The notes beneath the pieces were generated by a model. That model saw only the letters and a program-made list of their open reading frames with translations. It did no database searches and was not told the origin of the DNA. A stretch of 64,000 bases of DNA from an uncultured Saprospiraceae bacterium (lineage in GTDB: Bacteria; Bacteroidota; Bacteroidia; Chitinophagales; Saprospiraceae), in contig CAKZVK010000024.1 of NCBI GenBank assembly GCA_937921825.1, forward strand, positions 1 through 64,000. The letters run 5' to 3'. This document shows, piece by piece, positions 37,871-64,000 of the stretch (within the stretch, counting starts at the first letter, position 1; each line of letters opens with the position of its first letter). The position numbers and the translations under genes are program-made.

Positions 37871-39784
37871 ATGATGAGATTTTTATTAGGTATTCTCTGT
37901 TTTTTTCTTGTTTCTAGCTCTTTCTCGCAAGAGAACAGAACTATCACAGGTATAGGGAATAATCCGGATGTATCTCACATTGGTAGCGAAGGCGCCCCAC
38001 TCATCAGATATACCAAAGCGAATTACGCTGACGGCTTTCAAGCAATTAACGACCAAAACTTGCCTGGTCCAAGGGAAGTTAGTAATAGTCTCTTCGAACA
38101 ATTAGATGATATCTTCGAGCCTAGTGACTTAAGCGACTACGTTTGGTTATTTGGTCAATTTTTAGATCACGATATTTCATTAGTCGAGAACGACGAGGAG
38201 CAAACGCCTCTTCTATTGGATATACCTGCAGACGACGCTTATTTCAATTCTAATACTCCAATATTTCTTTCTAGAAATAAATTTATACAAGGTACTGGAG
38301 TCGAGCCTGGCAATCCTAGAGAATATGCAAATGAAGTTACCTCGTTCATAGATGCTTCAATGGTCTATGGTAGCACTGAGGAAAGAGCTGATTGGTTAAG
38401 GACTTTTGAGGATGGGAAAATGAAAATGGCTAAGAAGACAGGAAGTACTGAGAACCTCTTGCCTTGGAATACGCTATCTGGAGAATTCAATGATGCGATA
38501 GATTTTTCTCCCGCTGCTAGAATGGCAGATGATACAAGAACACTAACCAAGTATTTTGTGGCTGGTGATGTCAGAGCTAATGAAAATCCGTTACTTATAG
38601 CAATTCATACCTTGTTCGTCAGAGAACATAATAGACTCTGCGACGAGCTAATAGAATTATATCCTAACTGGAATGATGAGCAATTGTATCAGAGGGCTAG
38701 AAAGTATGTAGGAGCCTACATTCAAGCTATTACTTATTACGAATGGTTGCCTGCTATGGGAGTCTATCTAACTGATTATCAAGGATATGACTCAAAAGTC
38801 GACCCCAGTATAATGAATGTTTTCTCTGCAGCAGCGTTCAGGATAGGGCATACTATGATAGACGATGACATCATCAGAATGAATAATGAAGGTGAAATCA
38901 TAACTGCAGGAAACCTAAAACTAAAAGATGCTTTTTTCAAGCCTTATACTATAGTCAATGCAGACGGTCTAGATCCTTACTTCAAGGGTATGGGTACTCA
39001 GATTATGCAAGAAATGGATTGTAAGGTAATTGGTGATCTTAGAAATTTTTTATTCGAAGATTCAGGTGTTGCTTTGGATTTAGCGTCCATAAACATATTT
39101 AGAGGAAGAGAAAGAGGTCTATTAGATTATAATTCATTGAGGTCTGAATTTGGTTTGACTCAATTAAGGTCATTCTCTGATTTTTCTGACAATGAAGAGG
39201 ATGTAAGAATTATGACGGAGCTATATGGTGATGTCAATAATATAGATGCATGGGTGGGCATGCTTGCTGAGCCACATATTGATGATGAAGCCGTATTTGG
39301 CGAGCTAGTTATGGAGATAGTCGAAAAGCAATTCAGGCATCTCAGAGATGGAGATAGATTCTACTTTGAAAACGATAATGCTTTTACTCAGTCAGAAAAG
39401 GATGCTATCAAAAGAACGTCTCTACATGATATCATTATGAGGAATACTAACATCACTTTGATGCAACCTAATGTATTCGAAGCGATGCCTCATATGGATA
39501 TCCCTAATCTAGTTATAAACGAAATTCCTCTAGAAGCTCTTGCTTTCCCTAATCCTGTCGAGACAAAGACTACTATTAAGGTTTACTCAGATATTCAGAG
39601 AGAAATGACCTATAAGCTCTTTAGCCCCCTTGGAAAACTTATCCAATCTGGCACTATGAAGCTGTACGAGGGACAAGACAACTACCTTGAGCTAGAACTT
39701 GATGGTTCTGCTGTAAAAGGATATTATCCTTTCTTGTTGGAGTCAGATGAACTTCATACAGTTTTGAAACTCGTTAAGCAATAA
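37871..39784 (+). CDS. Secreted animal-type heme peroxidase (PF03098-like) with probable T9SS sorting domain
   Basis: VWLFGQFLDHDISLVE (distal His), HTLFVREHNRLCDEL, AAFRIGHTMIDDDI (proximal His); C-terminal ALAFPNPVETKTTIKV. Confidence 0.92.
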   Translation: MMRFLLGILCFFLVSSSFSQENRTITGIGNNPDVSHIGSEGAPLIRYTKANYADGFQAINDQNLPGPREVSNSLFEQLDDIFEPSDLSDYVWLFGQFLDHDISLVENDEEQTPLLLDIPADDAYFNSNTPIFLSRNKFIQGTGVEPGNPREYANEVTSFIDASMVYGSTEERADWLRTFEDGKMKMAKKTGSTENLLPWNTLSGEFNDAIDFSPAARMADDTRTLTKYFVAGDVRANENPLLIAIHTLFVREHNRLCDELIELYPNWNDEQLYQRARKYVGAYIQAITYYEWLPAMGVYLTDYQGYDSKVDPSIMNVFSAAAFRIGHTMIDDDIIRMNNEGEIITAGNLKLKDAFFKPYTIVNADGLDPYFKGMGTQIMQEMDCKVIGDLRNFLFEDSGVALDLASINIFRGRERGLLDYNSLRSEFGLTQLRSFSDFSDNEEDVRIMTELYGDVNNIDAWVGMLAEPHIDDEAVFGELVMEIVEKQFRHLRDGDRFYFENDNAFTQSEKDAIKRTSLHDIIMRNTNITLMQPNVFEAMPHMDIPNLVINEIPLEALAFPNPVETKTTIKVYSDIQREMTYKLFSPLGKLIQSGTMKLYEGQDNYLELELDGSAVKGYYPFLLESDELHTVLKLVKQ

Positions 39785-41701: not shown

Positions 41702-44700
41702 ATGATTATGACTTTAAGAGAATTGTTCAAGAGACAAAGTATTCTACAGCCTAAGAGCTACAAATTCATACCTACACTGGTTGTGATTTTGTTTGCGATG
41801 GGTAACATTGGTGCTCAGCAACTAGTAACTAATGGTGATTTTGAAGCCGGTTTAGCTGGTTGGACCATTACTAGTACAGGGACTGGGAATAATTATGTTC
41901 TCAATACAGGTGCCTTTAATTCCAGTTGCACAGATGCCTTCACGGTATGGATGAGTCCACAACCACAGATAGCAGACTTAAACAGTGTAGCTAGCGATTT
42001 GGATGCAGGAACATCTAAACTAGTTTCTGGTGTAATAGCTATACCTGAAGCCTGTAGTAAGCTCAAGCTTTCTGTGGACGTAGAGTACGAAAGCCTAGCT
42101 CCTTTAGATCCCATGACACAGGATATTAAAATCACTGCCTTCGATGCAATGATGAACAATTTAGGAACTATGTTTTCTTTGACAGGTTCAGGGTCAGGAC
42201 AAGCTCATGTGCCTCATGCGACTATATGTAGGTCTATTTTCAACCCAGGAACGGGTTCTGGGTCAGCTGGTCTAGCACCTCTCTCTGGTCAGAATATCAC
42301 TTTGGAATTTGAAGCAACTGCGCAAGATGGTTGTTTCCCTCACCAGTTTGATAATATTGGTTTGGTCTGTCATGATCCTCTTGTTGCGATGGACATAGAG
42401 ATAACGGATCCATGCTCTTGTACCAATCCTAATAATGTAGTCCAAGCAGACGGCTCTTACTTCTTCCATGATATACTTCATGTCAGTTCAGGAGTAGGTC
42501 TGACTACAGTGCATTTAGCAGCTAATGATGGATTCTTAGTAGATGCAACTAATACGCCTATACCCGTAGGTACAGTGTTTACAGAAGTAACACCAGGAGA
42601 ATATGAGCTAGAGTTTTTCACGCTATCAGGTACTTCTAGTAACATAGAAGTAAGTACTGGTTTCGGATCAGTAGCTTTCACAGCAGGTGGCTGTGTTTTT
42701 GAAGGATGTAATGATTCTTGTCCTACTACTTTAGCTTGTAATAATAATATACAGATCTCTTTAGGACATACTTGTGAGGCTATTTTTGACCCTAACTTGA
42801 TATTAGAAGGGACTATAACTGATTGTCCTTTTTCTGTAAGAATAAAAGATGCAAATGATGTCGTTCTTCTTGCTTCAGAAATGAATGGAGGCGCTATGAC
42901 ACATCCAGTAATAGATGCAACCTTTATAGGTGATAGCTGCAAAGCAGAGGTGTTCTACCTAGATGATAATGGTGTAGAAGTAACTTGTTGGGGATGGTTT
43001 ACGGTAGAAGATAAATTAGGTCCGACGTTGACTTGTGCACCAGATGTTACAGTTTCTTGTAAGGATAATGTAACTGTTGATGCAGCTGAGCTAGCGGCTA
43101 TAGGCCTCGTTGATAATTGTGGCAATGCAGAGATTAGAATAACTAGAGATGTACTAAACGAGCACGAATGTGGGCCAGATGGTATCACTGCAGAACGTTT
43201 GGTTGAGTATATAGCAATAGATAACAATGGTTTAGTTTCTCAGACTTGTAGTTACCTAATATCTTATAGTAAGATCGACTTAGCTGATTTAGATTTCCCT
43301 TCTAACTATGAGGGAGAATGTGTAGATGGTGAGACACCTGATGCGGACATAACTGGAGTACCTAACGTAGGTGGATGTGATCTAATGCTGACAGATAATC
43401 TATGTAAGTTTAATATTTCATTTACTGATGATACTACAAGAACTTGTGGTTCTAATATTTCAATTCTTAGAAAATGGGTAGTACTAGACTGGTGTGCTGC
43501 AGAGCATAGACAGAGTTATCAGACTATCAAAATCTCTGACACAGAGCCTCCTGTGGTTTCTTGCCCTATAGATATAACAGTAGAAGCAACGGCGGGTTGC
43601 TCAGGAACATATACTTTTGATCCGTTTGAAGCAAATGATTTATTTGATGCAGCGATTATTGATGACTGTTCTAGTTTGACTTTTCAAGCTCAGTTTTTGA
43701 CTGCAGATGAGAGAGATGTAGATGATGTAGATCAGCCGTTTAATAATATGTCTGGTAATGGTCCATTTACTGCGACTTTACCAGGAGGACAGAGTTGGAT
43801 AAAATATATTGCAACAGATGCTTGTGGAAATTCTTCAGAATGTAGAATGGAAGTATTTGTCCAAGACAATCAAGCACCTATAGCAATATGTGACCAGTTT
43901 ACTGCGGTTTCTCTGGCAGACAATGGCTGGGGTAGAGTATATGGTCCTTCACTTGATGATGGCTCATATGACCAGTGTGGTGGGGAGGTGACATTTGAAG
44001 TTAGAAGATCAGATACACCATGTGGTGACGATGCTTCTAGTGATAGAGATGACACCATCTTTGGGGACTACGTTCAGTTCTGCTGCTCTGAAGCAGGAGA
44101 TACCGTTAGGGTAGAGCTTAAGGTTCTAGATCCAGTTGGGTCATTCAGCACCTGTTCTGTTAATGTGGTTGTGCAGGATAAGCATAACAACTTTGATATG
44201 GGCTGCCCTATGCCAGCCGTAATAACTGCTGATTGTGATATGAATTTGAGTCAGATTAAAAACATGTATGGATCACCTAACCCAAGTAACTCTTGTGGTG
44301 CAGTGCCTACCTTTATATCAGAAGATGATGACTCCGGTCTAGGTGATTGTGGCGCAGGGAGTATTTCTAGAATATGGACAGCAGTCTATGGGCAGGATAC
44401 TACTAATACCACTTGTATGCAGACAATACAAATTGAAAAGGCATCAACTTTAAGTAGATCTTCTTTCAATCCACCTACCTCTAATCCAGTTGCTAATTGT
44501 TCTAACTACTTTGAAGATACTGGTGATGGACCTAGTCTGAGATCGGATAATGTATGTGCTGATGTAGGTTTTACTTTTGAAGACAATAGTTTCTTTAACG
44601 TAGAGGGATATTGTGTAAAAGTTATCAGAACATGGACAGCTATCGACTTCTGTAATTACAATGCAGGTACCGGTGAAGGAATATGGGAATGGACACAAAC

Positions 44701-46834: not shown

Positions 46835-49800
46835 ATGTCATTACGTATCCACGTCATTTTTATTTTACTCCTGAGTTCCATTACCGGATATGCTCAAACC
46901 CCACTGAATTTCATAACAACACAGACCTCTGTACCTGCTCCAGGCAGTACCTTGGATGTGGAAGTGAGATTCGCGGACTTCAATGATCTAATTGGCGTAA
47001 ATGCCTATATTTTATGGGATTCTACCGTGATGGAGATTGACACCATTCCTTTTGTTGATACTTCTAACACCTTACCAGGTTTCTCTAGGGCTAGCCTTGC
47101 ACTCCCTAGTATGAATAATTTGAATCCTGAACAAGGTCAGATGAAGATGTTTTGGTTTTCAGGTGGGGCTGTAAGCATACCAGATAGTACACATTTGTTC
47201 ACCATGCGATTCAATGTCGTGGGAACACCTTGTGATTCTACGACTTTCACACTTGGAAATGTAGGAAGCTTCCCCACTCAGATGACAGAGATTTTAAATG
47301 CAGCAGGGGAGGATATAGGAGGAATCATTACAGGACCAGTAGTAGAGATTCCTGGTACCAATTGTAACATGATGACGGCTAGTCCAGTTGGATTTGACTT
47401 ACTGAATGTTACAACAATGTCTGGTTCCAATATCTGTATGCCTCTAGTGGTAAGTAATTTTGATAGTATAGATTCATTTGGCGGCAGTCTCGCTTGGGAC
47501 CCCAATGTTCTAAGTTATACAGGTGTACAAGCCTTTGGTGTGAATAATTTTTCTGCCACAGATTTCAATGAATTACAAACTTCGGCCGGTTCACTCACTT
47601 ACACATGGATAGATAATTCTGGAGTTAATCCTGAGACATTAGGTAATGGTGCAACTTTATTTGAAGTATGCTTCGATGTACTTGGTTCTCCAGGGTCTTC
47701 TGGTCAGGTTAATATAGTGGATACACCGACCCCAGTTTCTATAACCAAAGCGCAACCAGATCCTACTAATCCGAACAGTATTTTGTTACAGTTCACGACC
47801 AGTGCAGGAATCGTGTCTGTACAGCAAATAGCACAACCAGACCCTGTAACTTTTCATTTTGCAGATGTAAGTGCTGATATGGGTACCAACGTTTGTATTC
47901 CTGTAACAGTAGATGATTTTACAAATATCAATTCAGTAAGTGCAAGTCTATCATGGGATGCCTCAGTAGCACAGTATACAGGGTCTCAAGCATATGCACT
48001 TAATAATTTTACAAATAACAATGTTAACTCTAATAATGCCTCTAGTGGAGAATTAGGGTTTACGTGGTCAGATATAAGTTCAGCGAATCCAGCGACACTT
48101 TCTAATGGCAGTACCTTGCTAGAATTGTGTTTTGATATGGTAGGAGCTCAAGGGACAAGCACTGGTGTGAATTTTTCTAATTCCCCATTCCCTATTATGG
48201 TTACTCAGCAGAATAGCACTCCAGGTCAGCCTGCTATAACCCTCCAAACCATGCTTGATAATGGTAGTATTGCTGTCAATAATAACTCCTTAGCAGATGT
48301 GGTATTTACCCTGCCAAATCTCTCAGGAAATAATGGCGATAACGTATGTATACCTGTAACTGTAGATGGATTTACAAATATAAATTCTGTCAATGGTAGC
48401 CTCATGTGGGATCCAACGATATTGAGTTATACAGGTCTCGGAAATTCAAACCTTCCAGGCTTGACACCATCATCTAATTTGAATGAATCTCAGACAGGTA
48501 ATGGTATGTTAGGATTTTCTTGGTTAGACCTTTCTGGTTCTACCCCAGTGACTATTCCCAATGGTGGCACTTTGCTGGAGTTATGTTTTGATGTAGTCGG
48601 TAGTCAAAATGCAGTGACTACTTTGAAGATGACAGATAGCCCTACGATAATATCTGTCTCAGAACAGCCAGCTAGTCCTTCAGAACCATCAATAGAACTA
48701 AGCTTTAGTCTCGAGAATGGATCTTACACTGTAATCAATGGTCCGAATACCGGAAGTGGTGTTACCTTGACTATGGGTTCAGCATCAGGAAGTTGTAATG
48801 ACAACATTTGTGTGCCTATGACTGCTAGTGGATTCACTGATATTAATTCTTTCAACGGAAGTATTCAATGGTCTCCTACGGAATTAGAATACACAGGAAT
48901 TGCAAATGTTGCTCTGCCTGGATTGACTCCTTCTGGTAATCTAAATGAAACTCAGACGGGTAATGGTATGTTAGGTTTTTCTTGGTTGGACCTTTCTGGT
49001 TCTGCTCCAGTGACTCTAGCATCAGGTGCGACGATTTTTGAAGTATGCTTTGATGTTATAGGGTCTAACTCTAATAGTACCTCTGCGCTGACTACAATTG
49101 ATTCACCGACGATAATTTCTATATCTGCTCAGCCAGCAAATCCCTCTGATCCGTCCATTGAACTTATGTTCAATTTACAACCAGGCAATTTCACTATTAA
49201 TGCAGGTTGTACACCAACTACAGGTGGAGTTGACTTTATACTTTCAGAAGTCTGTGCTGCGCCTACCGATAATACTGTTTGTGTGCCTTTAGAGGTTAAC
49301 AACTTTACAAATGTTTCACAGCTTGACTTTAGTCTAATGTGGGATCCCACAGTAATAGAATTTGATGAAGTGGATGAAGTTTTACTTGCCGGGTTCAATG
49401 AAACTAATAATATAAATACCAACCAGATTGATAATGGTATGTTGTCATTTATTTGGTTTGATGATACTGGTGCTAATCCAGCGACTTTTGCTGACGGTAC
49501 TGCTATCGCAGAGTTTTGTTTTGATGTCATAGGAGGAAACGGTGATGTTTCTGTAGTCAAGATGTTTGACGGTCAGTCAGTTGGACTGACGGATATCGCT
49601 GTAGGTGTTGCTGGGGCTACACCTTCTGACCCTGTAATGCCTACGACCTATACTTTAGATGATGGAGAAGTAGAAATTAAAACTGCATCTCCAGATTTTC
49701 ATCTTTCAGTATCAGAAACTACGACTGAGACTCCAGGAGGAGTTGCTTGCGTGGACTTGAATGTAGTCAACTTTAATAATCTGATTATTACTGAATGGAA

Positions 49801-52471
49801 TCTACAATTCGATCCGAATGTACTTTGCTACAGAGAGATTAGAAATATAAATCCAGCTGTTCCTACAATGAATAGCGGATTTATTGATGTTAATACTCCA
49901 GGCATCATGAAGCTGGCATGGTCAGATCCTAATAGACAAGGAAGAACTATAATAGATGGACCAGGAGAGGAGACTTATTTTAGTGTCTGTTTTGATGTGA
50001 AGCTACCTTGTGACCAGACTGCGAATGTAGATGTGCTCGTGGATCCTTCTGTTGCAGCTTTCTTTGAAGTTGTAAATGAAACAAATCAAACGACGCCTCT
50101 GCCATTCACTTTTGACAATGGTTCTGTGACCTTGGATTGTGATGGTAACCCTATGCCACCTACTATTACAGGTCAGAATATAGTCAACCCTAGATGCAGT
50201 GATGAGAATAATGGGGCTATAACCGTAGATTTTGTTGGAGGGGTAGGAGTGACTAACTGTTCTTGGACAGGTCCTAACGGTTTCTCAGCATCATTTGATA
50301 ACTGTAATGGCACGACAGGGATTTCTGGTCTTGCTCCAGGTACATATACGATCCGTATCACTGATAGTGCTAACAATGCAGCTACAGAATTTTATAGCAT
50401 AACAGCACCAAGCCCAATTGCCATTAATGCAACAGTAACTAACGTCACTTGTGATGCACAAGGCAATACCATATTCGGAATGATTCTAGTGAATCCTTCT
50501 GGAGGCACAGGACCTTATACAGTTAGCCCTACACAACAAAATCTTATCAATATAAATGAAGGGGATTATAGAGTAGAAGTAACTGATTCTAGAGGTTGTT
50601 CTGTAGTTCAGTTCTACAGTGTCGGAAAAGATTGTGACCAATTTGAAATAACTTCTTGCTCTGCTACAGTAGTTTCACAATCAGAATGTGGTCGAGGAGG
50701 TAGAATAGAAACACAAGTAGTAGGCGGTCTGCCGCCTTTTGCTGTTTCATATAGTCCAGCTGTTTCTGATATAAATAATATCCCTCCAGGTGCTTATTGC
50801 CTTACTATTCGTGATGCTAATGGAAGTGAGTGCAAAACCAATACGGTCACTGTCTTTGATAGTACGCTGCCTCTCAATGCTTTTGTATCTAACATACAAC
50901 CGGGTAATTCATGCACCTTGGTAGGAGGTAGTGCAGACATAGAGGTCGTAGGAGGTTGTCCACCTTATGCTTGTTCTATAGGACTTATCATAGGAGGTGT
51001 ACAGCAAGGTGCAAATAATTGCTCTACTAGTAATAACATCTTACCTGGCCTTTATTACTTGAGGGTAAGAGATAACAATAACAATATCTTTGAGACTCAG
51101 TTTACAATACCGAACATGCCTATCGCACCTCTAACTTCTAGTGTTTCTAATCTAGAAGATGCTGGGCCATGTAGTTATGATAATGGTTCGGTAACTATAG
51201 GTGCTGCTGGGGGTTGTGGTCCATATACTGTAGAGATAGAAGAAGAAAATAATCCAGGTACTCTAGTAGCGAGTGGAGCAGGTAATGTGACTTATCAGTT
51301 ACCCACTGGTTCATATATAGCAACTATTACTGATAATGATGGGAGTAATCCTTCTATGAGTACTGAGACCTTTACAATTGGTGGTCCAGATCCTATAACC
51401 CTAGCTGGAGTATATGAAGATATAGACTCTTGTGATATTAGAATACCATTTGCTGGAGGTACACCACCGTATAGTTTTGAATGGTTAGATTCTAGTAATA
51501 ATCTTGTATCAAGTGATGAAGTATTGGATCTGACTAATGAAATGCTTGCAATTTGTGATACAGCATCTGTGACGAGAGTTTACACTGTGATAGTAACTGA
51601 TGGCTCTGGTTGCGTATTTAATTTTGAAGAATCGATTGAATGTATGGGTTTACTGCCTTGTGGCGATCCAGGAGTTCTATCTGTAAGTGATCTTGAAGGA
51701 AGTACTGTAACTTGTCCAGAAGATACTGATGGTACTATCTCAGGTGTCATAGCTCAAGAGCCTGCATTTGCTCCTTATACAATCACAGTAAGTGACCAAA
51801 ATGGAAATGAGTCTAGTATTATCCAGAATGATGTGGGACCATTTACTTTCCCTAATCTGAGTGCGAGTAGTTATACTATGATGATTACAGATATCAATGG
51901 TACAGACTGGTTCCTCGGTTCTAATATTATCGTGGGTTCTAATGAGCCAATCGACATAGAGCTATTGGATTCCTCATGTGAGGATGGCCAAGGTGTTCTA
52001 GAGGTTAGTTTTTCTGGAGGCACGGGTAATAATTATACATTGGAATGGACCTATCTAGGTCAGGCATTTTCGGCGGAGCCTAGAATCACTGACCTTGAAG
52101 AAGGGTCCTACTTTATAGAAGTAGTGGATGGTGCTAATTGTAGCCAATCACGTGTCTATGATGTGATGTGTGATGAAGTCATCGAAGATTGTGACATCTA
52201 TGATGGAAGACCAGTCATTACGCCTAACGCTGATGGTATAAATGATGTGTTAACTATCGAGTGCGCCTCAGCAGATCAGCAACTAAGTATCTATGATAGG
52301 TGGGGTAACATGGTTTACTCTGCAGATTATGGTGCTGGTTGGGAAGGATTGGATAACGATAATCAGCGATTAGGAGAAGGAGCCTATTATTGGGTTTTAT
52401 TGGTTGAGAACGCTGACGGTACCGCAGAACGAATAGAAAAAGGAACTGTCACCATACTCAGAAATGAATAA
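46835..52471 (+). CDS. Seven-module cohesin-like array protein with SprB-like repeats and gliding motility-associated (type B) C-terminal domain
   Basis: Signal peptide; modules start about 46898, 47389, 47846, 48299, 48761, 49229, 49697 (e.g. DNVCIPVTVDGFTNINSVNGSLMWDPTILSYTG...LLELCFDVVGS); SprB-like repeats 50161-52190; C-terminal VITPNADGINDVLTIECASADQQLSIYDRWGNMVYSA. Confidence 0.9.
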   Translation: MSLRIHVIFILLLSSITGYAQTPLNFITTQTSVPAPGSTLDVEVRFADFNDLIGVNAYILWDSTVMEIDTIPFVDTSNTLPGFSRASLALPSMNNLNPEQGQMKMFWFSGGAVSIPDSTHLFTMRFNVVGTPCDSTTFTLGNVGSFPTQMTEILNAAGEDIGGIITGPVVEIPGTNCNMMTASPVGFDLLNVTTMSGSNICMPLVVSNFDSIDSFGGSLAWDPNVLSYTGVQAFGVNNFSATDFNELQTSAGSLTYTWIDNSGVNPETLGNGATLFEVCFDVLGSPGSSGQVNIVDTPTPVSITKAQPDPTNPNSILLQFTTSAGIVSVQQIAQPDPVTFHFADVSADMGTNVCIPVTVDDFTNINSVSASLSWDASVAQYTGSQAYALNNFTNNNVNSNNASSGELGFTWSDISSANPATLSNGSTLLELCFDMVGAQGTSTGVNFSNSPFPIMVTQQNSTPGQPAITLQTMLDNGSIAVNNNSLADVVFTLPNLSGNNGDNVCIPVTVDGFTNINSVNGSLMWDPTILSYTGLGNSNLPGLTPSSNLNESQTGNGMLGFSWLDLSGSTPVTIPNGGTLLELCFDVVGSQNAVTTLKMTDSPTIISVSEQPASPSEPSIELSFSLENGSYTVINGPNTGSGVTLTMGSASGSCNDNICVPMTASGFTDINSFNGSIQWSPTELEYTGIANVALPGLTPSGNLNETQTGNGMLGFSWLDLSGSAPVTLASGATIFEVCFDVIGSNSNSTSALTTIDSPTIISISAQPANPSDPSIELMFNLQPGNFTINAGCTPTTGGVDFILSEVCAAPTDNTVCVPLEVNNFTNVSQLDFSLMWDPTVIEFDEVDEVLLAGFNETNNINTNQIDNGMLSFIWFDDTGANPATFADGTAIAEFCFDVIGGNGDVSVVKMFDGQSVGLTDIAVGVAGATPSDPVMPTTYTLDDGEVEIKTASPDFHLSVSETTTETPGGVACVDLNVVNFNNLIITEWNLQFDPNVLCYREIRNINPAVPTMNSGFIDVNTPGIMKLAWSDPNRQGRTIIDGPGEETYFSVCFDVKLPCDQTANVDVLVDPSVAAFFEVVNETNQTTPLPFTFDNGSVTLDCDGNPMPPTITGQNIVNPRCSDENNGAITVDFVGGVGVTNCSWTGPNGFSASFDNCNGTTGISGLAPGTYTIRITDSANNAATEFYSITAPSPIAINATVTNVTCDAQGNTIFGMILVNPSGGTGPYTVSPTQQNLININEGDYRVEVTDSRGCSVVQFYSVGKDCDQFEITSCSATVVSQSECGRGGRIETQVVGGLPPFAVSYSPAVSDINNIPPGAYCLTIRDANGSECKTNTVTVFDSTLPLNAFVSNIQPGNSCTLVGGSADIEVVGGCPPYACSIGLIIGGVQQGANNCSTSNNILPGLYYLRVRDNNNNIFETQFTIPNMPIAPLTSSVSNLEDAGPCSYDNGSVTIGAAGGCGPYTVEIEEENNPGTLVASGAGNVTYQLPTGSYIATITDNDGSNPSMSTETFTIGGPDPITLAGVYEDIDSCDIRIPFAGGTPPYSFEWLDSSNNLVSSDEVLDLTNEMLAICDTASVTRVYTVIVTDGSGCVFNFEESIECMGLLPCGDPGVLSVSDLEGSTVTCPEDTDGTISGVIAQEPAFAPYTITVSDQNGNESSIIQNDVGPFTFPNLSASSYTMMITDINGTDWFLGSNIIVGSNEPIDIELLDSSCEDGQGVLEVSFSGGTGNNYTLEWTYLGQAFSAEPRITDLEEGSYFIEVVDGANCSQSRVYDVMCDEVIEDCDIYDGRPVITPNADGINDVLTIECASADQQLSIYDRWGNMVYSADYGAGWEGLDNDNQRLGEGAYYWVLLVENADGTAERIEKGTVTILRNE

Positions 52472-57300: not shown

Positions 57301-60300
57301 CCTTTGGTCAAGGTGGTTGTTTGAATGAGACTACTTTATTTGTAGAAGGAGATGGTCCAGGAGTTCCGTTACTAGCAGGTACCTTACCTACTATAACAGA
57401 CTGCGAGGATAACTCAAGAAATCAAACTTTTGTTTATGATGCTTCTTGTGGAAAAGAAACAGTGAGATATACTGATAACGTATCTGGTAGCGGATGTGAT
57501 GGTATGCAAATACTAAGAACATGGGTTGCTACAGATGACAAAGGAAATAGTGGAGAATGTGTTCAGACGATAACTGTTGAGTCTATTGGTATTGATACTG
57601 AAGGAACTGATTGGTTCTGGCCAGATACTGATGTACCTACTATAGCTTGTTTAGATGGTTCTTCTATCAATCCAGATGGCGACTCAGGTATCCAACTGAC
57701 ATGTGGCGCAGATGCTTCACCAGAAGGAATTATGAAGTATTACTTAGCTGAATATCAAGCTTGTGTACCACCTCCATCTCCGGATGCAGCTGACTACCCA
57801 ATCTACAGAGCTAATCTTAAGAGATTTGCAAGAAGTAAGGCTTTCCCTTACGCTGTAACTAACGAAGGATGTGAGTCTGATACTTACCCAGAAGAGACTG
57901 CTGTGATATTCATGGAAAACACATGTAATATTATCTTCAGCTACAATGATCACGTATTACCAGCTTGTGGTAGTGATTGTTCTGGAAATGAAAAGATCAT
58001 CAGAGAATGGACGGCTTTAGATTGGTGTGATGCGAGTACAATAACTCATACTCAGATTATACATTCTAAGGATAACAATGGTCCTCAAGTTGATTTATTA
58101 GCGGCATTTGGTGTTCAATCAACTAATGAAATGACTGTGAGTGCTGACCCTTGGGGTTGTCAAGCAACTTTCACTATACCTGCTCCTGAGCATTTATTAG
58201 ATGACTGTTCTGATGATATTACTTATACAGTTAGTGGGCCAGCTAATCTTAGTTTTTCAAATGGCGCATGGCAAGTAAGTGGCGCACCAAGAGGTGTTCA
58301 CACATATACTTATACAGCAGTTGATTGTTGTGGTAATGAAGGAACGGCTACTTTAACAGTAACTGTTGTAGATAATACACCACCTATTCCAGTTGTAATT
58401 AGAGATGTTGTTGTAGGGATGACTTATGCACCATCTAACCCAGAAGGGGGATCTGCAAAAGTATTTGTAGACCAAATAGATAACGGATCTCATGATGGAG
58501 ATTGTGGAAGAGTTAAGACATACATTAGAAGAATGGATGGCGAGAACTGTGGAAACCCAGGTAACAATACCTTCGCAAACTTCAATGATTTACCAAATAA
58601 CGTTCAGACACCAATAAATCATGATAGAAATGATCCAGATGGTGGTCAATTCGTTAAGTTCTGTTGTGCAGACTTGTTGAATGATTCATTTGATGGTGGA
58701 GATTTAGATGGTGATGGAATCAATGATTATGTAATCATACCTGTAGAGATAGCTGTATGGGATGATGCGGATGGTGACGGATGGCCAGGAAGTTCTCTTG
58801 GAGATAGATTGTCTGTGACATGGGCTAATGTAAGATTAGAAGCAAAAGTTGCTCCTATCTTAACTTGTCCTCCTGATGCAACTATTGAATGTGATCAAGA
58901 TGAGAATTCAATGTTAGTTATTCAGTCTTTCTTAGGTGGAACGGCGACAGCAGTATCTAACTGTGGGACTCTTGATGTTGAATATACTGATGAATGTGAT
59001 GAAGATTTCAATAAAGCTTGTCACCATGGTATTGTTATAAGAACATATACTATACCAGGTACTCAAATGACTTGTGAGCAAGAGATTACAATTAATGAGC
59101 CAGGTGTAGGCACAACTGAGTATTTCTCAGGTAGTTATTACCTGACTGATGCTAATGGTGATTACATACTACAGAATAATGGAAGACCTATCGAAAATGA
59201 CAATGTTACTTTCCCTTATGAAGGTGATGCTGTGGATGTTGAAAACGATGATTTCGATGACTTCTCTGAAGTAGAGCTTGATTGTGTAGATGGAATGTTA
59301 GAAGATGAGCCTACATGGGTTGCTGAAGGCTGTGGTTTAATTGGATGGTCTTTAGAGTCTGATACAATCTATCTTGAAGGAGATGCTTGTGTTAAAGTAA
59401 TAAACAAGTACTGTGTAATTGACTGGTGTCAGTATGATCCAAGTTTACCTGGAAGAGTACCAACTAATGGTGACATGAAAGGAAACGAAGAGAACCCAGG
59501 TAAGTGGTGCTGGACTGTAATAGGAAAGTTAAGAGACGAAGTTGCTCCATCAGTAACAGCTACAGATGCTGAATTCCCTGCTCAGCCAGGTGGAGGTGGA
59601 TCAGGTGGATTCCCTACATCATTGAACTGTGTAGGTACAGCTCAGATGTCTGCAGTAAGTAATGATGATGCTTCTGATTGTCCAAGTGACTGGATTAAGT
59701 GGGTAGTATATGTAGATAGTTATGATGACGGTACTCCTAACTGGGAGTGGAGTTCATTCATTGCTCCTGATGATGGTAACCAAATACCATGTTGGACAGA
59801 TACTAACGGAAATGGTATTCCTGATGTAAGAGTCGGAAGTGGCACATGTAACTTTGATAATGCTGATAGTAATGGAACAGCTCCAGGTGAGACGTTCACT
59901 ATTAACATTCCAGAAACATATCCTGCAGATTGTGATGGTTCTACTAGACACAAAGTAAGCTGGACTGCATTTGATGGTTGTGGTAATATTTCTTCTACAA
60001 CAAGTTATTTCACAATAACAGATCAGAAGGCACCAACTCCTTACTGTGTGAACTTAAGTACTGCGTTAATGGATATCCCTGTAGGTGGAAGTCCTGAAGA
60101 TGCAATGGTTGAACTATGGGCTATTGATTTCGATAGAGGTAGTTTCGATAACTGTACAGATGATGAGAACTTGTTATTCACGTTCACAGATGATGCTTCT
60201 ACAGTTATACCTGAGTTCAGAAGTGCAGCTATGACATTCACTTGTGAAGATTTAGCTGGAGGTAATCCTGCATTATTAACTCTTCCTATCTATGTATGGG

Positions 60301-61880: not shown

Positions 61881-64000
61881 ATGGATCTCATGAAGTATTT
61901 GAATCTCTGCCAAGAGAAAAGTGTAGAATTGTGTCTGATTATAGCGGTTATGCTTATAACTGCGGTCTCAGGATACAGTCAGTGTTCTCTTTCCTGCAAC
62001 GGTACCACACAGGTATCCCTTAGTTCCACATGTAATGCTATAATTACACCTAACATGATACTCAGCGATAATGGTATCTCCTGCATGGGTGGTTCTTTAT
62101 CAGTTGTTGTATCGGATGATTATGGTCCAATGCCTGGAGGGAACGAAGTAACTTCTGAATACATGGGTCAGACTTTAACTGCAATGGTTATTGATGCAAC
62201 GAGTGGAAATTCTTGCTGGGGTAATATAATTATAGAAGATAAGCTAGGACCAGCGATTACTGACTGTCCTATGGGTTTCATCACTATGGATTGTCCAGAT
62301 ATGACAACATATTCTGGACCTACATTTACAGATAACTGTGATGGTGATCTGACAGCTGTGCTGCTAACAGAAGATATTACTACGCCTTGTGATCCAGGAA
62401 TAATAAAAGAAATAGTACAGACGTACTCTGCTGTAGATAATAAAGGAAACGTCGCCACTAATCAGTGTACTGTTAGATTAAGACTAAACAGATTCAGCTG
62501 TGATAGAGTAACTTATCCTGACAGTCTTTTGATTAGTGATAATACAGCCCTTAGTTGTGCAGTGGTATCAGATTATGATGCAAATGGCAATGGAAGAATA
62601 GACGAAGGTGAATTAACACCGGCAGAGTTTGGAGTTCCATTCTATACTTTAGAGCCTGAGCCAGGTGTATTTGATACTGTCTTGCTATATCCGTATCCAG
62701 ACATCTACTGTAATACAGTTGTAACTTTTGAAGACATAGTATTACCTAAGATTGGTTGTACACAAAAGATAATGAGAAGATGGTTAATTAATGAATGGCA
62801 CTGTGATGGTGAGAATTCATGTAATTATACTCAGTTAATAGAAATTACAGATAACGAGGGACCAGAAGTTACATGTCAGCCAACACTGGAACTTACGACA
62901 AATACTCTTATTGCTGCTCCGGGAGGTACTTATGGTGATTTCAATTGTGGCGCTGAGGTCAGCTTACCATTACCAGAAGGTACTGATAACTGTTCTGAAG
63001 ATATCAAGTACGACGTTACATACCCAACAGGTCATATCAATGATTACGATGGAGGCAAGATAACTTTACCGATGGGTACTAATGTGGTTTTGTTTACAGT
63101 TTATGACGATTGTTATAACTCATCTACTTGTCACATAGCACTTAATATAGTAGACAATACTCCGCCAATAGCTATTTGCGATCAGAATACGACTGTAAGT
63201 TTGACTTCTGGTGGAACTGCAACTGTAAGATCAGAATCATTTGATGATGGATCTTATGATGATTGTAAAATGCATTGCTCATTAGTAAGAAGAATGGATA
63301 ATGGTACATGCGTATGTCGAGTACCTGAGTTTTGCGACCTCACTTATTTAGGCAATAGAAATGGTTCTAATTATTACTTATCTAACTATAAGATAGCAGC
63401 ATCGATAGCTAAAAATAGAGCAACTTCATATGGAGGTGGTTTAGTAACATTTGAAGACGAGGATGAAGAATCTTGGTTGACAGGGGAAGTAAGGAAAAGA
63501 TGGAGTGACAGGTTCTGGATAGGAATAAAAAGACAGGGCGATGCTTTCTTGAATGAAGATCACACCGCACTAGAATATACTAATTGGGCTACTGATCAAC
63601 CATCATTAGGTATAGGTGAAGACTGTGTCATGGTTACTCCAAACAATCAATGGAACGATGCACCTTGTAGCAGTGAACAAAGATATGTACTCGAAATCGC
63701 AGAAGGATGCGGCTTCTCTAGTGGGGCTAAGTTCTGTTGTGAAGATGCAGGAGCTGAGCATATGGTAGTTCTAAGAGTGGTAGACTTTTATGGAAACTTC
63801 AATGATTGTATGGTCAGCTTGACTGTACAAGATAAGTCTGCACCAAGATTAACTTGCCCGAGCAATATGACCGTTGATTGTGATCACTTATATGATAGAA
63901 ATGATTTAGATAGTGCATTCGGAAGCTTAGAGATAGGAGAGAGCTGCGGCTCTAATATATTCCCATCTGTAGATATTGACTTTGACGAATGTGGCTCTGG
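61881..64000 (+). CDS. HYR-rich secreted protein with nested C-type lectin domain (partial, runs off the window)
   Basis: Open frame from ATG 61881 to the window end (not in the ORF track, no stop): MDLMKYLNLCQEKSVELCLIIAVMLITAVSGYSQCSLSCNG...FWIGIKRQGDAFLNEDHTALEYTNWATDQPSLGIGEDCVMVTPNNQWNDAPCSSEQRYVLEI. Confidence 0.88.
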   Translation, partial: MDLMKYLNLCQEKSVELCLIIAVMLITAVSGYSQCSLSCNGTTQVSLSSTCNAIITPNMILSDNGISCMGGSLSVVVSDDYGPMPGGNEVTSEYMGQTLTAMVIDATSGNSCWGNIIIEDKLGPAITDCPMGFITMDCPDMTTYSGPTFTDNCDGDLTAVLLTEDITTPCDPGIIKEIVQTYSAVDNKGNVATNQCTVRLRLNRFSCDRVTYPDSLLISDNTALSCAVVSDYDANGNGRIDEGELTPAEFGVPFYTLEPEPGVFDTVLLYPYPDIYCNTVVTFEDIVLPKIGCTQKIMRRWLINEWHCDGENSCNYTQLIEITDNEGPEVTCQPTLELTTNTLIAAPGGTYGDFNCGAEVSLPLPEGTDNCSEDIKYDVTYPTGHINDYDGGKITLPMGTNVVLFTVYDDCYNSSTCHIALNIVDNTPPIAICDQNTTVSLTSGGTATVRSESFDDGSYDDCKMHCSLVRRMDNGTCVCRVPEFCDLTYLGNRNGSNYYLSNYKIAASIAKNRATSYGGGLVTFEDEDEESWLTGEVRKRWSDRFWIGIKRQGDAFLNEDHTALEYTNWATDQPSLGIGEDCVMVTPNNQWNDAPCSSEQRYVLEIAEGCGFSSGAKFCCEDAGAEHMVVLRVVDFYGNFNDCMVSLTVQDKSAPRLTCPSNMTVDCDHLYDRNDLDSAFGSLEIGESCGSNIFPSVDIDFDECGS

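Follow-up and report, generated by a model that had tools for sequence, protein, structure and literature searches.

The 64,000-nt window, the whole stretch of DNA analysed here, comes from an uncultured Saprospiraceae bacterium and ends within an ORF for a secreted HYR-type protein (61881..63998, + strand). The window holds the first 706 of the 1456 aa of this protein; the rest of the gene lies further along the contig, up to L009:4752. The full-length 61881 protein matches the Pfam families Lectin_C, Cohesin and Por_Secre_tail, with an additional weak match to Dockerin_1, and it has HYR-like units and a C-terminal T9SS sorting domain. We read it as a T9SS-exported surface protein and probably an adhesin, and we infer that it acts in surface adhesion. 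The gene is flanked by the gene of a second HYR protein, 54354, and by genes for peptide deformylase, RNase H and TatD. The protein encoded at 46835-52471, which has several cohesin domains (E = 3e-38) and a sorting domain of the CHU_C type, sits among the HYR proteins 41702, 54354 and 61881, whose C-terminal stretches are dockerin-like and cohesin-like; the four may form a surface cohesin-dockerin assembly. The window also encodes, at 37871-39784, a haem peroxidase of the animal type (PF03098, E = 8.5e-151) whose T9SS sorting tail is weak.

An initial annotation of this DNA had placed a C-type lectin domain (CTLD) within a cysteine-rich module of the 61881 protein, and we found this arrangement between 63144 and 63845 (protein residues 422-655), together with the quoted motif WATDQPSLGIGEDCVMVTPNNQWNDAPC, which is present letter for letter. 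The module was delimited with a profile of 24 natural copies without a long loop (empty copies), the 61881 protein not being among the 24. The N-terminal half of this Ig/HYR-like host module, residues 1-56 (63144..63311, +; ICDQ..DDGSYDDC..VRRMD..C), was located by the profile and by alignment, and the C-terminal half (63714..63845, +; FS..V.FCC.DAG..D..GN..C.V...VQDK) by the profile. The empty-copy profile matches the 61881 protein twice, with profile positions 2-65 (E = 5.5e-24) and 63-107 (E = 3.1e-16), leaving a gap of 125 residues that holds the CTLD (63339..63704, +). The CTLD was identified by Pfam PF00059 (residues 514-603, E = 1.6e-10, 42.1 bits against a cut-off of 22.6), by Foldseek and by its modelled helices and strands. 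An unbroken profile over an interrupted sequence, as seen in 61881, is the hallmark of nesting, and the two halves that enclose the CTLD belong to one module.

Structure prediction of the whole module, which the initial annotation had suggested as a check, agrees with this. The AlphaFold2 model of the module with its CTLD (57 sequences) is confident (pLDDT 93.9, pTM 0.88) and places three host strands before the CTLD and three after it. In Foldseek searches with this predicted model the guest resembles CD23, mannose-binding protein and similar CTLDs, with E-values down to 1.3e-9 and TM-scores (target) up to 0.89 against solved CTLD structures. None of the matches listed spans the entire module, and a viral structure library gave generic CTLD matches only.

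The host module comprises about 107 residues and keeps six cysteines with and without the guest; Cys198 is replaced by Ser in two empty copies. It resembles HYR (PF02494) and HYR_4C (PF23237) as a Cys-bearing Ig-like unit that ends in D..GN..C...V.V..D and stands in tandem with true HYR units, but unlike them it lacks a dedicated Pfam model. The HYR model PF02494 matches 5 of the 24 empty copies (best E = 0.0046), and the module is HYR-like without being assigned to HYR. A sequence search for solved structural relatives of the module returned none. The module had been described as common to all three HYR proteins, and this holds cleanly for 61881 and for 41702, where an empty copy (43856..44185, +; E = 8.2e-38) was also recovered by a whole-genome search and has the short loop reported for it. 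The copy in the 54354 protein (58383..58850, end approximate, +) is diverged: its N-terminal half matches the empty-copy profile at E = 4.4e-12 and its C-terminal half falls below significance, ICDQ is missing and the sequence reads VVIRDVVV, and a later loop is enlarged. Its loop, described as about 40 aa longer than that of 41702, is in fact 33 aa long after the cysteine. The initial annotation had allowed that homologues might lack such a module; it is present in 56 of the 59 sampled genomes of the family and, with CTLD-nested copies at about 50 loci, the arrangement is far beyond chance.

The gene order around the 61881 gene allows the module to be followed at one locus. Thirteen relatives (L026-L038) keep the window gene order as far as their contigs extend. 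An empty module is found in L092, with the HYR gene, deformylase and RNase H ordered as in the window, in L077, L079, L080, L081 and L091, with deformylase downstream, and in L074, with deformylase nearby on the opposite strand. Full-length alignments of the window protein with those of L092, L077, L079, L091 and L074 (1264-1289 aligned residues, 37-41% identity) contain one large extra piece in the window protein, 113-119 aa long and located at the CTLD; each of these except L074 also carries an additional stretch of 29-38 aa at another position. When the window protein is compared with L035, the sole large difference is 99 + 62 extra residues in L035, in the long-loop region of the CTLD. The module thus exists empty, with a CTLD, and with a CTLD plus a third domain at one syntenic locus. 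Since HYR-type proteins are tandem Ig-like units, flanking fragments are easily taken for halves, yet the reading of the CTLD as a conventional, separate domain of a linear chain, with the two halves as independent short repeats, is very improbable and we rejected it at the level of sequence comparison, because the profile positions continue exactly across the gap and the full-length empty orthologues miss just the CTLD piece.

As the extra residues of L035 fall within the CTLD long loop, L034-L036 carry a domain inside a CTLD inside the module. This third domain of about 160 aa (L034:6001-7188, L035:6001-7200, L036:6001-7194) gave only a weak Pfam match to GEVED (E = 0.052) and no solved relative by search. 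It is known only from these three loci, with no convincing copy in 118 genomes of the family. The model of the twice-nested protein is poor overall (pLDDT 69.7), with both CTLD parts at about 80-95. Foldseek with this model returned mostly mannose-receptor-type chains in long alignments with TM-scores near 0.2, and these matches were disregarded.

A tree of the module halves with the insert removed (98 rows, few columns) requires one change between the empty and the CTLD-bearing state and one further change for the third domain. Support for its key single-origin branch is moderate (56/86). An independent deformylase tree gives the same change counts with support of 84/79, likewise moderate, for the single-origin branch, and 95/92. 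On these trees the CTLD entered once into a pre-existing module, and each step has a single origin. Both trees are unrooted, with midpoint rooting used for drawing only, and one change would also fit a loss. CTLD-bearing modules would then be ancestral and the empty ones at the locus would have lost their CTLD, which we consider unlikely. The module occurs in nearly all sampled genomes, and the majority of its copies in the fetched loci are empty; 62 of 148 genomes have at least one CTLD, whatever its kind. In the deformylase tree the midpoint root has empty orthologues on either side, and in a clean loss the two cysteines that border the CTLD would need to be removed exactly as well. We therefore take the direction to be from empty to CTLD-bearing, based on the prevalence of empty copies.

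CTLDs are also found elsewhere in these genomes. Two family members of one genus (G026 and G131) show an unusual expansion of CTLDs, with 23 and 28 matches in their respective genomes. The window genome encodes six further CTLDs (two each in C18 and C21, one each in C170 and C72) inside ordinary HYR units. The HYR-nested CTLDs at L010:2686-7431, L011:4446-12818, L012:2663-5107 and L013:2387-4306, all in the window genome, have a QPN-type motif and WND; two of these four proteins have two CTLDs in a row, followed in L010 by a GEVED domain. By sequence comparison and our reading of the strands, such HYR-nested CTLDs would sit before the strand that precedes the guest in the window module, and hence in a neighbouring loop. 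On this placement, the nesting of CTLDs in Ig-like units seems to have arisen at least twice in these bacteria.

We examined what fills the loop in relatives in a single scan of a genome collection, which returned 80 loci, nearly all from Saprospiraceae; this sample over-represents CTLD carriers, a CTLD being part of the query, and the search patterns themselves lie in the N-terminal half. Pairing of N- and C-terminal halves over all fetched ORFs yielded 198 module copies. Their loops are mostly 0-55 aa long, with about 50 at 113-167 aa and three at 305-308 aa. The long loops share a flank, C.C..P....YLG..G..YY.S, and end in (D)PCGFS. Pfam Lectin_C was found in 35 of the 57 modules scanned, which include 10 empty ones. 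No guest other than a CTLD was seen in the confident long-loop copies among the 198. Four long-loop pairings in three loci, L023 (92 and 156 aa), L040 (350 aa) and L043 (366 aa), were considered as other guests; both halves match weakly in each, and we set them aside as likely mis-paired neighbours. Five guests of 113-118 aa (L047, L048, L058, L060 and L061) keep the cysteines that border the CTLD and miss the CTLD long loop, and that of L047, scanned singly, had no Pfam match.

The initial annotation had viewed the loop as an evolvable display site and proposed an alignment of homologues to see what occupies it. They carry empty and CTLD-filled loops, and the guest does evolve faster than its frame: among 11 orthologues mean identity is 68% for the host, 51% for the CTLD and 47% for the long-loop region. 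This faster evolution, the variation in loop length among empty copies (8-53 aa) and the further domain gained in L034-L036 are what a general display port, repeatedly given different guest domains, might be expected to leave behind. Every confident long loop is a CTLD, however, the module tree needs one change, and the third domain went into the CTLD and not into the host loop. With CTLDs as the sole guest class and a single insertion on the trees, the loop does not appear to be a repeatedly reloaded display site, and we regard a general port as unlikely. What stands of the earlier view is the nesting in a module that also exists empty and a fast-evolving guest in a slower frame, with a CTLD that was itself later invaded.

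Two cysteines lie just outside the CTLD, in module numbering Cys58 (63315..63317, +) and Cys189 (63708..63710, +). Both are present in 46 of 47 guests, the one exception being L030, which has lost both, and all 10 aligned empty copies lack both. That the two cysteines occur together and are lost together speaks for a disulphide at the guest's base, and the alignment suggests a Cys58-Cys189 bond at the neck of the insertion.

The long-loop region of the window CTLD contains a candidate Ca2+ site (63597..63659, +). A motif table of 47 inserts shows that Gln-Pro-Ser (QPS), the Glu before Asp-Cys (GEDC) and Trp-Asn-Asp (WND) are all present in the window copy, with Ser an unusual third residue when compared with EPN- or QPD-type motifs. 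L026-L030 keep this set unchanged. The full set survives only in the window subclade; most relatives, including the orthologues L031 and L032, have lost it, and in most of the 47 inserts Gly takes the place of the Glu, and VV, EI or the like that of WND. L037 has DPN, and C146 and C63 of the window genome are degenerate paralogues. A preference for galactose has been reported for a crayfish lectin with QPS (PMC9638144). Ca2+-dependent glycan binding by the window copy, perhaps of a galactose type given QPS, is plausible at close to an even chance by these residues. As a conserved trait of the family, such binding is not supported by the motif table. A diversity-generating retroelement target was considered and rejected, since the window's assembly (96% complete) has no match to the RVT_1 reverse transcriptase.

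Because the Ca2+-site residues are lost in most relatives, the common function of the nested CTLD may not be sugar binding. The guest may now act chiefly as a spacer in the structure or in protein-protein contact, as a rigid knob with a decaying sugar site. The retention of QPS, Glu and WND in the window subclade alone and the five cut-down CTLDs of 113-118 aa point this way, and known families contain many CTLDs that lack a sugar site and bind proteins. Against it, the window copy and its closest orthologues L026-L030 all have the candidate site intact and unchanged, which suggests selection there. We give the spacer reading a substantial chance, somewhat short of even, and judge side-mounted ligand display by the nested CTLD to be likely.

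The reading that we consider probable as a whole is a split host domain with a side-mounted CTLD head, entered once and later given a third domain. The chain would lay down the first host strands, leave at the loop that follows the VRRMD strand and fold into a complete C-type lectin domain, then return beside its exit point to finish the host domain. The N- and C-terminal ends of the guest would thereby lie together at the base, pinned by the putative Cys58-Cys189 disulphide, and the long-loop binding face of the CTLD would be turned outward from the adhesin axis, making the CTLD a ligand-binding head mounted on the side. After the single entry the CTLD would have been inherited and duplicated, its tip would have diverged, and one lineage would have gained the third domain in the tip.

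With PF00059 members such as CD23, mannose-binding protein and the macrophage mannose receptor, the guest shares the Pfam and fold match, the WIG-type core and, in the window copy, the Glu and WND of a candidate Ca2+ site 2. It differs from them in that the classical C1-C4 disulphide cysteines are missing and the Cys pair is at the neck, outside the fold, in that QPS replaces EPN/QPD, and in that most of its nested relatives have no Ca2+ site. Intimin and invasin are bacterial adhesins with Ig-like units and a CTLD-like tip, and there the CTLD-like domain is C-terminal and follows the Ig units linearly, whereas the window CTLD is nested within one.

The closest parallel is with RTX adhesins (MpIBP with PA14, FrhA of Vibrio cholerae and AhLap of Aeromonas hydrophila), in which split Ig-like domains display ligand-binding domains, and AhLap provides a precedent for double nesting, its projected vWFA domain itself carrying an insertion (PMC12077191, PMC10865825). 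In both systems an Ig-like unit is interrupted by a domain of ligand-binding type, and the corresponding discontinuity in sequence is found in the window module. The interrupting domain of RTX adhesins has its ends side by side and its binding face away from the axis. Those proteins use type I secretion and belong to Gammaproteobacteria, whereas the window protein is a T9SS protein of Saprospiraceae; we found no RTX repeats or type I secretion signal in it and a C-terminal T9SS sorting domain instead. RTX guests are PA14, CBM, peptide-binding or vWFA domains and the window guest is a CTLD, and the FrhA host is split after its first strand whereas the cysteine-rich HYR-like host is split after its third predicted strand. 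The paired neck cysteines and the empty orthologues at the same locus further set the window system apart. The window protein works like the RTX adhesins and is not a member of them, with a different secretion system, host, guest and phylum. Our literature search found no report of split-domain display in T9SS proteins with a CTLD, and nothing relevant on CTLDs with HYR or in Saprospiraceae.

Linear domain calls miss the host domain because the domain lacks a Pfam model and its sequence is interrupted, which is a warning for annotation. Natural orthologues at one locus allow the consequences of each insertion for folding and binding to be tested without engineered constructs. Split-domain display, so far as we found known only in the RTX adhesins of Gammaproteobacteria, is extended here to T9SS proteins of Saprospiraceae, in which the guest is a C-type lectin and its neck probably carries a disulphide. 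We think it reasonably probable that adhesins can grow by stepwise outward nesting, in which an Ig-like domain receives a CTLD at a loop and, in a later lineage, the CTLD in turn receives a third domain of no known kind at its ligand-facing loop, each step being clamped or bounded and all three stages still living at one locus.
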